From an uncultured Kordiimonas sp. (lineage in GTDB: Bacteria; Pseudomonadota; Alphaproteobacteria; Sphingomonadales; Kordiimonadaceae): 64,000 nucleotides of DNA. Position numbers and translations under genes: made by a program. Of this stretch, positions 23,278 to 30,252 are shown piece after piece (position 1 is the first letter of the stretch; the number at the start of each line of letters is the position of its first letter). The notes beneath the pieces were generated by a model. That model was not told the DNA's origin and did no database searches. It was given only the letters and a program-made list of their open reading frames with translations. The stretch covers positions 62,001 through 126,000 of the forward strand of contig CANNDZ010000004.1 in NCBI GenBank assembly GCA_947503575.1, written 5' to 3'.

Positions 23278-25950
23278 TTATACAAAGGCATCCAGGCAGT
23301 CTTTAACGTCACCCAGCTTCACGGGTTTGGTCAGGAAACGATCAATCCCTGATTCGACGCTGCGGTCTTTTGCCTCTTCCATGGCATCGGCAGAAATAGC
23401 AATTATCGGGACGCGCACGCCGTTTGTTTCGCTCGCTCGGATTGCACTGGCCAGGGCAAATCCATCCATATGCGGCATGCGCAGGTCGGTCAAAACAATG
23501 TCATGCCGGGACGGGTCATAAATTTCCAGCGCTTTCTCGCCGTCGTCGGCCGTATCCCATTCATACCCCAGTGACTTTAAAATTTTACCGATGACAAGCT
23601 GATTGATCTTATTGTCTTCCACCACCAAAATCCGTGGTTTTTCTTTTGAACTTGCTTCTTCGGCATCTTCTTTTTTTGCATCGGGAATTTCACCGACCTC
23701 AGATGCGGCTGCAGGTATGTTTTTGGCTATCTGCAGCGGTATGACAAGGGTGAAGGTCGAGCCTTTGCCCTCTGCGCTGTTGGCAATAATTTCGCCGCCC
23801 ATAAGATTTGCCAGCCGCCGACAGATGCTAAGCCCCAGTCCCGTACCGCCAAACTTCCGCGCCACGGACGAGTCTGCTTGCTCGAACGGCTGGAACAAGC
23901 GGCTCATCATTCGTGGGTTGATGCCGATGCCTGTGTCTGACACGGCCAAGCGCACCATATATTTGTCAGCAGACGTATTTTTTGCTGATGCTTTAACAGT
24001 GACTGTGCCCCCGGGCGTAAACTTTAGCGCATTACTCAGCAAATTATACATGATTTGCCGGATACGGTTGGAGTCGCCGACAACATAATCTGGGACCGTA
24101 TCGTCTATCACGACATCAAAATTGATCGACTTCTGACGAAAACTTTCACGCAATAGGTCTGTAACACCTGTTATCATCGCGGGCAGGGCAAAATCATGTG
24201 TACTGATCTGAAGTTTGCCAGCCTCAATTTTGGACAGATCCAGCACATCATCAAGGATAGTCAGCAATGTTTCGGCAGATTGGTTGATAACTGTAACCAG
24301 CTGATCCTGTTCTTCATCAAGGTCACTTTTGGCCAACATTTCACCGACAGAAATGATCCCGTTCATCGGTGACCTGATTTCGTGGCTCATCATGGCCAGA
24401 AAGTTGGATTTGGCTTGTGCCGCTGCCTCGGCTTTGCGGCGGGCTTCTTCCAGGGTGTGCTCCACTTGTACTTGTTTGCTGGTGTCCACCACAATCAATT
24501 GTCGTGCCTTGGTGCCGTGCCATTCTACCGGACTGCTTGTCATGGCAAACCAGCGGGTGCCTCCGTTTCTTCCGGGTGCTGCGTGGCGCGCGACGGAGCG
24601 TTCGCCGGGCTCGCCAAACGCCGACAGCAGATGCGCAGGCACAATATCCAAAATGGTTTCTTTAGCGGCTTTGACACCCGTTTCTTCGTCTTCCCACAGG
24701 GCCTGGAAAGCATTGTTGTGATACAAAACCTGATCTTCAGTTGCGATGCACATCGCTTGCGGGGAAAGGCGAATAATTGCATTGGTTTGCTCTGCACTTT
24801 CCGCTAACTGCGTCTGCCTTTTGTCAATTTCCTCGACAAAATATTCAACCGCCTTACCAATTTCGCCCACTTCATCGTCACCTAGTGTCGGTACAGGTCT
24901 TGTCCCGCCTGACGCCCGGTCGATAACTGCATCCGACAGCGCCGTTAAACGGGCCAACATTCGTCTATCGATATAGAGGAAGCTGAAAGTGGCTATTGCC
25001 AAGGCAATGATGGCACCCACCAACAGGCCAGCCAGCTGTTGCTCACTCTGGCGTGCCATGGATTGTGCTGTAAGTTGCGCTGCACTGCTGCGCTCTGAGG
25101 CAAGGCTATCTGTCTTGCGCAGCAGTTCTGCAACCAGCACTCTCATTTGGCGTTCAAGCGCTCGGGCTCTTACGTCCACTTGTGACAGCGCTCGCAGCGT
25201 TGGCACAATACCGGTATCAGGCCCTAGTTGGGTCTCAAGACCGGTTAACCGGGCGCGTGCTTCTTCGCGTGCGGCTGGTGGCAATGTTTCTGTTGCGCTC
25301 CTGAGGGCGCGCAATGAGCGCTGGATGGTGGGCAATAACCGCTGTTGTGACCGAAAATTATCACTGGTTGCCAGCGTTACCACGCGTTTCACCAGCTGGT
25401 TCTCACGCTCTAGCCAGCCACTGTAAGCGGCGCCTGATTCTATGCTGGCGATTTTTGTTTCGCCGACATGGTCATCAACGACCCATGTCCCAAGGTCAGC
25501 CCGGTGTTGGTCCAGACGAGAGGATAGATCAATTCGGTTTTCGATCAGTCTGTTTAATTCTGTGGTTGTCTCGGCCAGGATCGCTAAAACCGGTTGGATT
25601 TCTTTAAAGTCCACCAGGGTGGTACGGGAGGCGAGAAGTGTATCAATAGCTGACAGCGCGTTTTGCGTCGCGCCAAACGAAATGCGGCGCTGCGCCTGTA
25701 CATCACTGGATACCAATTGTTCAGCGTTTTGGACAACTTCCTCTAGCGAGTTATTCAGTTCAATGGACGCAGCCAGAGCGGGTAGGGTTTGTTCCGCATA
25801 TACGGTCACTTCGTTGCCAAGCCGTTGCAAAGTGACAAAAGACAAAGTGGATACGCCCAGCAATAGCAACAGCAATACGGCAACGATTGCCTTGATTTTC
25901 ACACCAAGGCCAAACCGGCTGTTCCTCGACCCTGCAGACACGTCAGTCAT
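23278..25950 (-). CDS. Hybrid sensor histidine kinase, TorS-like input
   Basis: 890 residues, inner membrane. Helix TM1 is at about 14-36 and TM2 near 305-328, enclosing a helical periplasmic domain of about 270 residues similar in layout to the TorS sensor. A HAMP-like linker follows, then a PAS domain ('NAIIRLSPQAMCIATEDQVLYHNN', about 395-505), the dimerisation domain with phospho-accepting H523 in MSHEIRSP, an HATPase domain ('DTGIGINPRMMSRLFQPFEQ', 'GGTGLGLSICRRL') and a C-terminal receiver with D822 in 'LTDLRMPHMDG'. No HPt or DNA-binding output is encoded nearby, so the relay must continue elsewhere. Its ATG overlaps the stop of the upstream nucleotidase-like gene. Confidence 0.93.
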   Translation of the reverse strand: MTDVSAGSRNSRFGLGVKIKAIVAVLLLLLLGVSTLSFVTLQRLGNEVTVYAEQTLPALAASIELNNSLEEVVQNAEQLVSSDVQAQRRISFGATQNALSAIDTLLASRTTLVDFKEIQPVLAILAETTTELNRLIENRIDLSSRLDQHRADLGTWVVDDHVGETKIASIESGAAYSGWLERENQLVKRVVTLATSDNFRSQQRLLPTIQRSLRALRSATETLPPAAREEARARLTGLETQLGPDTGIVPTLRALSQVDVRARALERQMRVLVAELLRKTDSLASERSSAAQLTAQSMARQSEQQLAGLLVGAIIALAIATFSFLYIDRRMLARLTALSDAVIDRASGGTRPVPTLGDDEVGEIGKAVEYFVEEIDKRQTQLAESAEQTNAIIRLSPQAMCIATEDQVLYHNNAFQALWEDEETGVKAAKETILDIVPAHLLSAFGEPGERSVARHAAPGRNGGTRWFAMTSSPVEWHGTKARQLIVVDTSKQVQVEHTLEEARRKAEAAAQAKSNFLAMMSHEIRSPMNGIISVGEMLAKSDLDEEQDQLVTVINQSAETLLTILDDVLDLSKIEAGKLQISTHDFALPAMITGVTDLLRESFRQKSINFDVVIDDTVPDYVVGDSNRIRQIMYNLLSNALKFTPGGTVTVKASAKNTSADKYMVRLAVSDTGIGINPRMMSRLFQPFEQADSSVARKFGGTGLGLSICRRLANLMGGEIIANSAEGKGSTFTLVIPLQIAKNIPAAASEVGEIPDAKKEDAEEASSKEKPRILVVEDNKINQLVIGKILKSLGYEWDTADDGEKALEIYDPSRHDIVLTDLRMPHMDGFALASAIRASETNGVRVPIIAISADAMEEAKDRSVESGIDRFLTKPVKLGDVKDCLDAFV

Positions 25951-27476
25951 GAATTAGAATCACCTAAATTTCTGACGTCAATCACGCGCCCTTCAGGCTG
26001 CAAAGTTAGTATTCCCAGTTTTTCCACATGCTCTGCCACAATATTCCAAATTAGGCGGTTTGTGCCTACGTCGTATAACCGCTGCGCGTCTTCCAAAGCA
26101 TCAAACCCGTCATTGCCATCAGCCATAAAATCACTGACGGCCACCCGGTAATGGGCTTCCGGATCCAGGCGCTTTCCATCAATCAACACACGTATAATCC
26201 GGTTTCCGATAGGCTTGGCGCCATCGAATTCTATCGTCAAGTTGCTGACATGGATATAGCAACCATCGCCCCTAAGGCCGCAGTCTATACCGTGCTCCAG
26301 CGCGGCAATGATGTTTGCCCCTCGAAGGCGCAAAAGCGTGGTTTTATTTCCAAACGGGAGTTCGCGCTGAATGTCGCCCCGGCTTATTTCGTGGCCCTTT
26401 GGATAGGCCTTGTTACCTCGAATGGACCCTGCATTCAGGATCATGGCATCGGCACCAACCTCGGCCCGCAGGGCATCTGTTACCATATTGGCAAATGGAT
26501 TTTCCCGCGACCTGATATTACCAAGCAAGGTATCAAATTGTGTTTCAACAGTGGCGATACGGGGGCCCAGTAACTGATCCAGCCGGTCGCGGTATTCGTT
26601 TACAACGATTGCCACATCATTGGCAGGCGCATAATCAGCCAGCGTGAGCAGTTCTGCCTGTGTATTCAAGTTTGGGCTACCACTCGCAGCTTTATCCAGC
26701 CACAGGTCCAAAGCAATTACTTTCCCGTCCAGCGCACCCTCGGTCAAGATAACGCCTTGTGCATCAACTGTTTGCGGGTTGTCGAAATTGTGGGTGTAGA
26801 AAATGACGTCTACTGTACCATCAAGGCGCAACTTGCTCAGGTCGTCATAGTCTGTGTCCGCCAGAAGCACGACAGCTTGCACGCCTTCGTCCCGCAAGCT
26901 GGCCGCTGCGTCGCGGGTTGCTTGTTCGCTGTCAATTAACTGTGCCTGGTTGGCGCCATATTCAATGATTGCGTTGGCGGATGTAAGGGCAATAACCCCA
27001 ACCAATACTGAATTACCTTCAAGGACATAGGTCGGATAGGTCGCCTCTATCGCTGCGCCCGTTGACGAATCAACCAGATTGCTACTGACCAGCGGAAATG
27101 ATGCCGACAAAGCGTTTAGGACAAAATTGTCAAAACCATAGGAAAACTCCCGTTTTCCAATGCCCATTACACTTGGGTTGATAGTGTTCAAGATATCAAC
27201 CATGTGAGCGCCGTTGTCCAACGCTCCAAACACCGATGGTCCGAAAGACGCACCGCCGTTGATAAAAAACGTGTCTGGATTGCTGTTAGTTTCGGCACGA
27301 ATGGCACCCGCCAGCTCTGCAAGGCCAGGTTTATCGTCCTGTTGCATAATCTCGGGAAAAGAGGAGAAGTAGAGGATGCGTGTTTTGCCCGATGGCTGTG
27401 CGACAACAGCACCTGCAAGACAGATGGAAAGGCACGCTGCAAGTGCGGCAAAGCATGGAATCAAATAACGGCGCAT
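25947..27476 (-). CDS. Exported 5'-nucleotidase-like protein with degenerate metal site
   Basis: 509 residues with a signal peptide (cleavage near VVAQ). The layout is that of 5'-nucleotidase/UshA: a calcineurin-like metallophosphoesterase domain (about 30-290) and a C-terminal 5_nucleotid_C domain. The metal ligands are lost: motif I DxH reads 'ILYFSSFPE', the GD motif reads 'INGGASFGP', GNHEFD reads GKREFSYG and GHxH reads THNF. In contrast the substrate-binding C-domain keeps 'NAGSIRG', 'ELPFGNKT' and 'DFMADGNDGF'. It is probably a non-catalytic binding protein. It is translationally coupled (ATGA) to a hybrid histidine kinase, suggesting a ligand-sensing partner in the periplasm. Confidence 0.85.
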   Translation of the reverse strand: MRRYLIPCFAALAACLSICLAGAVVAQPSGKTRILYFSSFPEIMQQDDKPGLAELAGAIRAETNSNPDTFFINGGASFGPSVFGALDNGAHMVDILNTINPSVMGIGKREFSYGFDNFVLNALSASFPLVSSNLVDSSTGAAIEATYPTYVLEGNSVLVGVIALTSANAIIEYGANQAQLIDSEQATRDAAASLRDEGVQAVVLLADTDYDDLSKLRLDGTVDVIFYTHNFDNPQTVDAQGVILTEGALDGKVIALDLWLDKAASGSPNLNTQAELLTLADYAPANDVAIVVNEYRDRLDQLLGPRIATVETQFDTLLGNIRSRENPFANMVTDALRAEVGADAMILNAGSIRGNKAYPKGHEISRGDIQRELPFGNKTTLLRLRGANIIAALEHGIDCGLRGDGCYIHVSNLTIEFDGAKPIGNRIIRVLIDGKRLDPEAHYRVAVSDFMADGNDGFDALEDAQRLYDVGTNRLIWNIVAEHVEKLGILTLQPEGRVIDVRNLGDSNS

Positions 27477-27670: not shown

Positions 27671-28528
27671 TTAGCGGAACAGCAAGACCGGCACCTTTGA
27701 CTGTTCAATTTGTGCCATTGTGGTGCTGCCAAGGAACAGCCGGCGCAAGGGTGAATGCCCGTAGGCCCCCATCAGCAACAGCTCAATGTCATTTTCAGCA
27801 GTATAGTCCTTCACTGCCGCTTCAACAGAGGGTGCCTCAATCACTGACGCGGTGACGTCAAAACCCACATCCTTCAATTTGTCACGGGCCTTCCTGACAA
27901 TTGCATCTGACAGGCTGTTTTGTGTCCCAACCTTCAGGACATGACAGTCCAACCCGACCAGAAGGGAGCTGTTGCAGGCAAAGTCCACGGCTTTGTCACT
28001 GTTTGTGCGCCCGTCATAGGCAATCAGGAACCGACGGGGTACTGTGGATTGCTGTGTTGCAATCAGCAAAGGTTTGTAAACCCCGCTGGATACGCGCTCA
28101 AGGTTGGCACCCAGATGCCCACGATCATCGCCCGCCGTTTCTCCGCGTTTGCCAATGATAATAAGCCCGGCGTTGGCTTCGAGTGCCTGAATTTCTTCTA
28201 ATAAATCACCACGCCGATGCAGTAGGCTGGTGATACTTGCACCGCCATCAGCCAGTGCTTTTTGCGTGTGCTCCAGGATCAACTGGCCTTTGCGCTGTTC
28301 CAGTTTACCGTGTTCTTCGTCAATTTTCGCCAAGTCTTCCAGGAGGTCGCTTTTTGCCCCTAAGCCAATTTGGCCCGATAGGTCACCAGGAGCGACCGCC
28401 TCTGTGTGCGGTGCCACGACATGCAAAAGGGCAATATTGGCGTCCGTTTTACCAGCAGCCCAAGCGGCCATGGTGACCACATTCTGTGCGTGGGAGGAGC
28501 CGTCGACACATGCAATAATCTGTTTCAT
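27671..28528 (-). CDS. Universal stress protein, tandem UspA domains
   Basis: About 285 residues made of two UspA folds (about 1-150 and 160-285). The second domain retains the ATP-binding G-x2-G-x(9)-GS pattern ('MGAYGHSPLRRLFLGSTT'), while the first has 'IGKRGETAGDDRGHLGANLE'. Three consecutive ATG codons lie at 28534, 28531 and 28528; AGGGG is best spaced for the last. The gene starts 12-18 bp after the SulP transporter stop; SulP-Usp gene pairs are common and the stress protein may modulate the transporter. Confidence 0.9.
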   Translation of the reverse strand: MKQIIACVDGSSHAQNVVTMAAWAAGKTDANIALLHVVAPHTEAVAPGDLSGQIGLGAKSDLLEDLAKIDEEHGKLEQRKGQLILEHTQKALADGGASITSLLHRRGDLLEEIQALEANAGLIIIGKRGETAGDDRGHLGANLERVSSGVYKPLLIATQQSTVPRRFLIAYDGRTNSDKAVDFACNSSLLVGLDCHVLKVGTQNSLSDAIVRKARDKLKDVGFDVTASVIEAPSVEAAVKDYTAENDIELLLMGAYGHSPLRRLFLGSTTMAQIEQSKVPVLLFR

Positions 28529-28542
28529 CATCATTACCCCTA

Positions 28543-30024
28543 TCAATGATCAGGCATTAGGTCCAACGCACCGGGCTTATCATGGATACCCAGCCGGTCG
28601 ACGATGGTTGAACTTGCTTCATTCAGGCCCAGGACTTCGACTTCTGTGCCCTCACGGCGAAATTTCAGTACGACTTTATCAAGCGCGCCCACGGCTGACA
28701 GGTCCCAAAAATGGGCTTGTGTTAGGTCGATCGTGACCTTGCCGATCACCTCTTTGAAGTCAAAGGCCGCTGAGAATTGGCCTGCTGACGCAAAAAATAC
28801 CTGACCATATACTGTGTAGACCCGGCTGTATTGACCTTGCGTTATATCGGATTTGATGATCAGTAGCTGCGATACCTTGCGGGCAAAAAATAATGCGCTC
28901 ATCAACACGCCAACAAAGACGCCTTGCGCCAGATCGTGGGTCGCGACAACCACAGCAACCGTGGACAGCATCACCAGGCTCGATGATTTAGGATGTGTCC
29001 TCAGGTCTTTTACCGAAGACCAACTGAAGGTGCCGACCGAGACCATGATCATAACGGCGACCAGCGCGGCCATGGGGATCTGGCTGACCAGATCGCCAAG
29101 CACGAGGATTAGAAACAATAAAAATCCGCCTGCAAAGAAAGTGGACAAGCGTCCGCGACCACCGGATTTTACATTGATGACCGACTGGCCGATCATAGCG
29201 CAGCCTGCCATGCCGCCAAAAAAACCGGCAACGATGTTGGCAATGCCCTGGCCTGCACATTCGCGATTTTTGTCGCTTGGTGTGTCGGTCAGGTCATCAA
29301 CGATAACCGCTGTCATCAGCGACTCCAGCAGTCCGACCGCCATTAGCGTCACCGAATAAGGAAAGATAATTTCCAGTGTTTCCAGCGTCAGTGGAATGTC
29401 CGGTATTAGAAACAGTGGCAGGGTATCCGGCAAGTCGCCCATGTCCCCAACTGTGCGTAAATCCAATCCAACAAACATGCTGAAAGCCGTCAGTGTGACA
29501 ATGGCTACCAACGGCGATGGCACAGCCTTCGTCACATATGGGAACAAATAAATGATAGCGAGACCCGCAGCCACCATGGCGTACATCTGCCATCCAGCCC
29601 CAACAAATTCGGGCAATTGGGCCATAAAAATCAGGATCGCCAGCGCATTGACAAACCCCGTCATCACCGACCGTGATACAAACCGGAGCAACGACCCCAA
29701 TCGTAGGATGCCGGCGCCGATTTGCAAAACCCCTGTCAGCACCGTCGCAGCCAGAAGATATTGCAGGCCGTGTTCCTTGACCAATACCACCATCACCAGC
29801 GCCATTGCGCCTGTGGCTGCTGAAATCATGCCTGGTCTGCCGCCAACAATCGCAATTACAACAGCAATACAGAAAGAGGCGTAGAGGCCAACTTTTGGGT
29901 CAACACCGGCAATGATCGAAAAGGCGATGGCCTCCGGGATCAGAGCAAGGGCCACAACCATGCCAGCCAGCAGGTCATTGCGGATGTTGCCGAACCATTC
30001 GGCTTTCAGGTGAGCTAGCGACAT
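28543..30024 (-). CDS. SulP family anion transporter (sulfate/bicarbonate)
   Basis: About 493 residues: a 14-segment SLC26/SulP transmembrane domain ('[31 protein letters not shown]', '[17 protein letters not shown]') and a C-terminal STAS domain ('[27 protein letters not shown]'). It is likely a Na+ or H+ coupled importer of sulfate or bicarbonate; the BicA/DauA question cannot be decided by eye. The ATG at 30024, preceded by AAAGGT, gives the canonical N-terminus; the frame is open 46 codons further upstream. A universal stress protein gene follows in the same transcript. Confidence 0.9.
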
Positions 30025-30095
30025 CGCTGTACCTTTGGTTTGGGAACACAGCGTTGGCGGCACCGCTTGGTTGCCTGCTGCATTCATGTGTCGGA

Positions 30096-30122
30096 AAATA
30101 AAAAGTCCCACGCTGGGCGTGG
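30096..30122 (-). terminator. Intrinsic terminator after serine hydrolase gene
   Basis: On the minus strand CCACGC-CCA-GCGTGG is followed by GACTTTTTATTTT. It sits about 130 bp past the hydrolase stop and within the upstream region of the SulP gene. Confidence 0.7.
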
Positions 30123-30252
30123 CTTTCCTTGGATGCGCAACCAACAAGGTTTGGTTTGGCACGCGGAGAAATCTGCAGCGCGCTTCATACGCCGATGGAC
30201 TGAAAATACAAGCGCAAACTTTGTTAGATCGGGTTTCTGTTGTGTGTGATGC

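Follow-up and report, generated by a model that had tools for sequence, protein, structure and literature searches.

The two genes analysed here lie on the minus strand of a 64-kb stretch of DNA of an uncultured Kordiimonas sp. (G000 C4:62001-126000), which at its full length is called the window. The upstream gene encodes a pseudo-5'-nucleotidase, a protein of the UshA/CD73 fold with a single metal-site residue left, and the downstream gene encodes a hybrid histidine kinase with a TorS-like periplasmic sensor domain. The stop codon of the former overlaps the start codon of the latter, and an earlier interpretation made from the letters of this DNA (hereafter the sequence-only reading) had described the overlap correctly; the coordinates, the strands and the four shared bases are confirmed. 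The features, in window positions, are as follows.

25947..27476, (-): pseudo-5'-nucleotidase of 509 codons, UshA/CD73 fold, one metal-site residue left (Pfam/NCBIfam, PDB profile, AlphaFold2, Foldseek, VIA, column counts)
27399..27476, (-): putative signal peptide for periplasmic export, residues 1-26 (...AVVA|Q; hydrophobic stretch and AxA-type site, by eye)
26622..27386, (-): degenerate catalytic domain of metallophosphoesterase fold, residues ~31-285 (VIA, alignment columns)
27150..27155, (-): Lys108-Arg109, replacing the Asn-His of GNHE (CD73 N117-H118; alignment columns)
25977..26609, (-): retained substrate-binding C-domain, residues ~290-500 (PF02872, alignment columns)
25947..25950, (-): ATGA, the 4-base overlap of nucleotidase stop and kinase start (sequence)
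23278..25950, (-): hybrid histidine kinase of 890 residues (Pfam domains, His523 and Asp822)
25036..25833, (-): TorS-like helical periplasmic sensor domain, residues 40-305 (alignments A3/A6, AlphaFold2, Foldseek, VIA, hhalign)
24826..24966, (-): HAMP linker, residues 329-375 (Pfam E 2e-4; 22.0 bits, below the cut-off of 25.0)
24217..24414, (-): HisKA domain with phospho-acceptor His523 (Pfam)
23731..24078, (-): HATPase_c domain (Pfam)
23302..23631, (-): receiver (REC) domain with Asp822 (Pfam)

The sole Pfam family above cut-off in the pseudonucleotidase is PF02872 (5_nucleotid_C, 9.8e-34), and its N-terminal part gave no Pfam match to a metallophosphatase domain. A PDB profile search aligned the full chain to nucleotidases of known structure. 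The AlphaFold2 model, with a mean predicted local distance difference test (pLDDT) score of 89.8, has the two-domain UshA/CD73-type fold that includes the 5_nucleotid_C domain; its best Foldseek match is 2z1a (1.8e-38), and VIA gave a Z score of 32.6 with a root-mean-square deviation (rmsd) of 4.5 over 463 aligned residues. This single-protein prediction, a check proposed in the sequence-only reading, returned a nucleotidase fold. By VIA the model is nearer to closed CD73 (Z ~32, rmsd 3.5-4.7) than to open nucleotidases (Z ~27, rmsd ~10). SoxB also matches the protein, both by profile and by structure. Given the putative signal peptide, the pseudonucleotidase is probably exported to the periplasm.

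Residue columns were read, in full-protein numbering, after aligning 50 dead proteins with 25 catalytic ones. The first metal Asp (D36-equivalent), present in 24 of the 25 catalytic proteins, is S39 in the window protein, and the second ligand (H38-equivalent) is P41. The GD aspartate (D85-equivalent; 25/25 catalytic) is A76, the GNHE Asn-His pair (N117/H118; 24/25) is K108/R109, and the loop His (H220; 25/25) is D207. In the GHxH motif the first His is retained as H229, with F231 at the H245-equivalent position. The window protein therefore lacks the dinuclear metal ligands and the catalytic GNHE, H229 being the sole remnant. The sequence-only reading had all metal motifs replaced, which holds for all columns but that of H229. 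It had placed the GD change at GG, where the aspartate is indeed lost, although the position affected is the A of GGA rather than the second G; its DxH-to-SSF change likewise names a site that is lost (S39, P41), although the nearest catalytic relatives carry D-x-D/Y there instead of D-x-H. The alignment shows no shifted metal ligands; such a shift was among the outcomes that would have undone its proposal.

Across the 50 dead proteins, the Asn column holds Lys in 47 and the His column holds Arg in 47 and Lys in the other three, an exchange far more regular than would be expected of drift. The GD aspartate is still present in four alpha- and two gammaproteobacterial members, and an Asp stands at the first metal-ligand column in 18 of 29 gammaproteobacterial ones; in the motif tables no dead member has the full ligand set. 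The C-domain presents the opposite picture: R322, N348, R353 and D456 occur in 50/50 dead proteins, and F375 and F450 are always Phe or Tyr. We take these six residues to be the base-, ribose- and phosphate-holding positions of CD73/UshA, with N348, R353, F375, F450 and D456 presumably corresponding to CD73 N390, R395, F417, F500 and D506. Together with the PF02872 match, they bear out the view that the UshA-type substrate-binding domain is kept. To judge from the alignment, the dinuclear metal site of the upstream protein is gone and its nucleoside-binding C-domain residues are kept. Within the order, dead members share on average 44% identity in the N-domain and 44% in the C-domain (42% and 41% among the gammaproteobacterial ones). 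Since the N-domain is as conserved as the C-domain, it is not decaying, and is under selection for a role other than catalysis. The H91 of a GAH motif was discarded as a family-specific mark, being found in 17 of the 25 catalytic relatives as well.

The downstream protein has Pfam matches to HisKA, HATPase_c and REC, with a weak HAMP match, and with His523 in HisKA and Asp822 in REC it has the make-up of a hybrid histidine kinase. Two transmembrane (TM) helices, assigned by hydropathy, flank a 265-residue all-helical periplasmic domain, in agreement with the large helical domain described before. The window kinase gave no match to an HPt domain, so that a separate phosphotransfer protein is likely; a longer Kordiimonas kinase (L092, 1185 residues) has a weak C-terminal HPt match. 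In another genome (G014, L087:8967-11611) the kinase of the pair is split into frames of 711 and 168 residues, by a frameshift or an assembly error, next to an intact dead nucleotidase.

Pfam and PDB sequence searches with the sensor domain gave nothing significant, and the PF21689 model has no match in the window protein. The NCBIfam TorS model matched the sensor-only stretch weakly (E 5e-4), and the whole kinase scored 397.3 bits against the TorS equivalog TIGR02956, below its cut-off of 676.5. The relationship becomes clearer at the level of profiles and predicted structure. Remote relatives of the sensor in other alphaproteobacteria carry the PF21689 TorS_sensor_domain in those scanned (L135, L136, L139 and L141), and in L141 the gene begins 34 bases after that of a Peripla_BP_4 binding protein. 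By hhalign, alignment A6 matched a profile built from five remote sensors of this kind (98.5%, E 2e-15, 265 columns), of which four were scanned and all four were PF21689-positive. The AlphaFold2 model of the sensor is all-helical, with seven helices (pLDDT 84); its top six Foldseek matches are all TorS sensor domains, and VIA superimposed it on 3i9y with a Z score of 17.8 and an rmsd of 3.2 over 224 aligned residues, followed by the helical domains of McpS, McpZ and PilJ (Z 12.9-14.8). The predicted architecture is of the TorS type, a pair of stacked helical bundles flanked on either side by a TM helix. An analogy to TorT-TorS had been drawn from the sequence, and it holds up in these comparisons, in which the periplasmic domain appears as a distant TorS sensor with a remote relative adjoining a Peripla_BP_4 protein. 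In two other alphaproteobacteria (L135 and L139, in G573 and G535) PF21689 lies on methyl-accepting chemotaxis proteins; the sensor domain serves chemoreceptors too.

The dead nucleotidase was found in 20 of 198 genomes of the order (E < 1e-145). A separate search of the 198 genomes with the kinase periplasmic domain alone returned the identical 20, and nothing else at <=1e-6. Co-occurrence in the order gives a Fisher p of 8e-28, computed over 198 related and hence not independent genomes; within the window's own genus, five genomes are without both partners. Among 385 genomes of the class, strong sensor matches were limited to G000 and to G247, a member of another order. The kinase lies directly downstream of the dead nucleotidase in all 20 genomes and in G247 (L098), and the other neighbours differ. 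Adjacency is thus kept in every related genome that carries the pair, which is what the sequence-only reading had wished to see checked. In L095 the nucleotidase and sensor genes share one reading frame on either side of the stop codon.

The phylum was searched with the sensor profile, without any nucleotidase sequence. Among 398 genomes, matches outside the order occurred in two genomes of one family only (f195, which we take to belong to the Gammaproteobacteria), and both were sensor-GGDEF proteins encoded immediately 3' of another dead nucleotidase. Within this family, 28 of 148 genomes have the sensor, each time directly downstream of a dead nucleotidase and with GGDEF as the output in all 28; the reciprocal nucleotidase search returned 29 genomes, the 29th of which has the sensor as well. 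Two more families of the same gammaproteobacterial order added three further pairs, that of G1119 among them. Overall, a dead nucleotidase stands beside a receptor in 53 of 53 cases (21 alpha- and 32 gammaproteobacterial), the receptor being TorS-like in 52; as the gammaproteobacterial loci were found mainly via one or other partner in the sampled genomes, the 53 count sampled species rather than independent events. The nucleotidase comes first, on the same strand, and the two genes mostly overlap or lie within tens of bases. The output module is exchanged, hybrid kinase versus GGDEF, while the pair persists. A local event in one genus is ruled out by the second alphaproteobacterial order (G247, L098) and the three gammaproteobacterial families.

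As a control, 20 catalytic relatives in the class were inspected for a same-strand downstream gene with a kinase core or GGDEF, and 0/20 had one; one of these loci has a convergent kinase, and one has only ~330 bases of downstream sequence. In a quick maximum-likelihood tree, a branch supported at 99% in the Shimodaira-Hasegawa-like approximate likelihood ratio test divides all catalytic proteins from the dead ones, a topology that would fit if the dead form arose once. Nucleotidase identities, taken pair by pair, correlate with those of the sensors (Spearman 0.78 in the alphaproteobacteria, 0.52 in the gammaproteobacteria), as expected under joint inheritance. On these sequence comparisons, the dead nucleotidase and the receptor are inherited as a unit.

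We consider it fairly probable that the two genes make one receptor, in which the pseudonucleotidase recognises a nucleotide, a nucleoside or a compound akin to these, and reports it through closure of its domains to an output module that can be exchanged. In UshA-type enzymes the base is held by the C-domain and the phosphate by both domains and the metals, and the open and closed forms are a 96-degree rotation apart (PMC8475336). In the proposed receptor, the pseudonucleotidase would take the place of a TorT-type binding protein, with the nucleotide, nucleoside or related compound bound in its cleft. Lys108-Arg109 may take over the positive charge and the phosphate-holding of the metal site, such that the ligand would be held and not hydrolysed. 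The large inter-domain closure, which serves catalysis in UshA, would here become the signal, to be read by the helical sensor domain and relayed via TM2 and HAMP. The outcome would be altered autophosphorylation of the hybrid kinase in the window and altered c-di-GMP (cyclic diguanylate) synthesis in the gammaproteobacteria. The pseudonucleotidase presumably contacts the sensor domain, and may be expected to do so whether or not ligand is bound, as is the case for TorT, LuxP and XylFII (PMC6321045). In its broadest form, the proposal is of a receptor family, widespread and not described before, whose co-sensor is a former enzyme now gated by its ligand, with Lys-Arg as the phosphate holder and the domain rotation as a nucleotide switch for a phosphorelay (alphaproteobacteria) or c-di-GMP (gammaproteobacteria); we advance this only tentatively.

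Several observations weigh against a nucleotide-gated receptor. The closed-like shape of the pseudonucleotidase model may be an artefact of AlphaFold2, the conservation of the C-domain residues may reflect the fold or another ligand, and in one gammaproteobacterial genome (G1119) the N-terminal half of the GGDEF receptor was not recognised by the sensor profile. The genes beside the pairs differ between loci, and none points to nucleotide metabolism; as clues to the ligand they were discarded, for only housekeeping-looking or lineage-specific genes recur. The lack of a metabolic hint suits a co-sensor whose pocket has been retuned to a non-nucleotide small molecule, as in the sulfur chemistry of SoxB, and so do the match of SoxB by profile and structure and the fact that the residues examined are generic to the fold. 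We nevertheless find this rather unlikely, because in 50/50 dead proteins the base, ribose and phosphate contacts of CD73/UshA are either unchanged or swapped only between Phe and Tyr. A dead nucleotidase acting as a constitutive structural or inhibitory subunit, with no ligand and with the signal coming from elsewhere (for instance the membrane state), appears improbable: an obligate subunit would show equally strict pairing, and LuxP, TorT and XylFII bind their sensors without ligand too (PMC6321045), but such a subunit would not need the conserved contact residues and the cleft architecture.

That the protein is still an enzyme, metal-free or with other metals, and merely co-expressed with the receptor, could be argued from the aspartates that persist in some members (GD in four alpha- and two gammaproteobacterial proteins, first column in 18/29 of the latter). 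Yet in the motif tables no member has the full ligand set, Asn-His is replaced in nearly all, and the 20 catalytic relatives inspected never stand beside such receptors, which makes this explanation very doubtful. Overlapping genes are common in bacteria, and two genes may be chance neighbours in a compact genome; we give this almost no credence in view of 53/53 adjacency in two classes with differing flanking genes and matching presence and absence, and chance adjacency is ruled out by co-occurrence together with the controls (0/20 catalytic relatives).

Binding-protein-assisted receptors are already known. TorT-TorS, which senses trimethylamine N-oxide (PDB 3o1h, 3o1i, 3i9y), likewise joins a periplasmic partner to a receptor with a two-bundle helical sensor, a hybrid kinase in most of the alphaproteobacteria here. 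The partner in the window is a pseudo-5'-nucleotidase, however, and not a protein of the Peripla_BP fold; the kinase stays at 397 bits, short of the TorS cut-off of 676.5, without a PF21689 match, and no torCAD-like operon was seen. The sensors of LuxP-LuxQ and XylFII-LytS differ in fold from the TorS-like sensor, and their binding proteins also have other folds. In both, a binding protein reports its ligand to a sensor kinase (PMC6321045), as is proposed here. UshA, CD73 and the E. coli c4898 nucleotidase (3ivd/3ive) share the fold and the C-domain ligand residues, whereas the window protein has no metal site, carries GKRE for GNHE and is encoded with a receptor. SoxB, a metal enzyme, exemplifies the same two-domain fold in another job, again unlike the window protein in having a metal site.

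A pseudo-5'-nucleotidase as the binding half of a receptor, or a diguanylate cyclase that carries a TorS-type sensor and relies on such a protein, was not found in the open-access literature searched, which mostly excludes subscription journals and preprints, and the word nucleotidase is absent from a review of c-di-GMP sensing (PMC8846402). Within that literature, the earlier remark that no described sensor of this composition is known still stands. The finding extends beyond the sequence-only reading, to a receptor family that spans two classes of Proteobacteria and has two kinds of output. The periplasmic half of this TorS-type receptor was probably drawn from an enzyme fold, and its output takes either of two forms. 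Should the ligand be a nucleotide, this would lead directly to the way in which these bacteria sense extracellular or periplasmic nucleotides (a signal of phosphorus, nitrogen and lysis) and link them to a phosphorelay or c-di-GMP. The replacement of N-H-E by K-R-E is a signature that marks out, as probable sensors, proteins that annotation pipelines may label 5'-nucleotidases.

Upstream of the pair, a SulP-type anion transporter gene overlaps a universal stress protein gene (window 27671-30162, (-)); the transporter and/or stress gene is also near the pair in L083, L087, L088 and L090, and absent near the pairs of other relatives. At 11 gammaproteobacterial loci (L159-L178) a valyl-tRNA synthetase-like gene, with no evident functional link, lies 5' of the dead nucleotidase on the same strand. 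Outside the paired loci, the alphaproteobacterium G509 has tandem nucleotidases (L118:4404-7636, (-)), one intact and one partly degenerate (VNNI, GHSE, GHET, LPNPN), with no receptor; the degenerate copy is perhaps an independent pseudo-nucleotidase. In G544 (L110:1576-4774, (-)) a catalytic-type nucleotidase directly follows a same-strand protein that is PAS-like by eye; adjacency to signalling genes may take other forms in this enzyme family.

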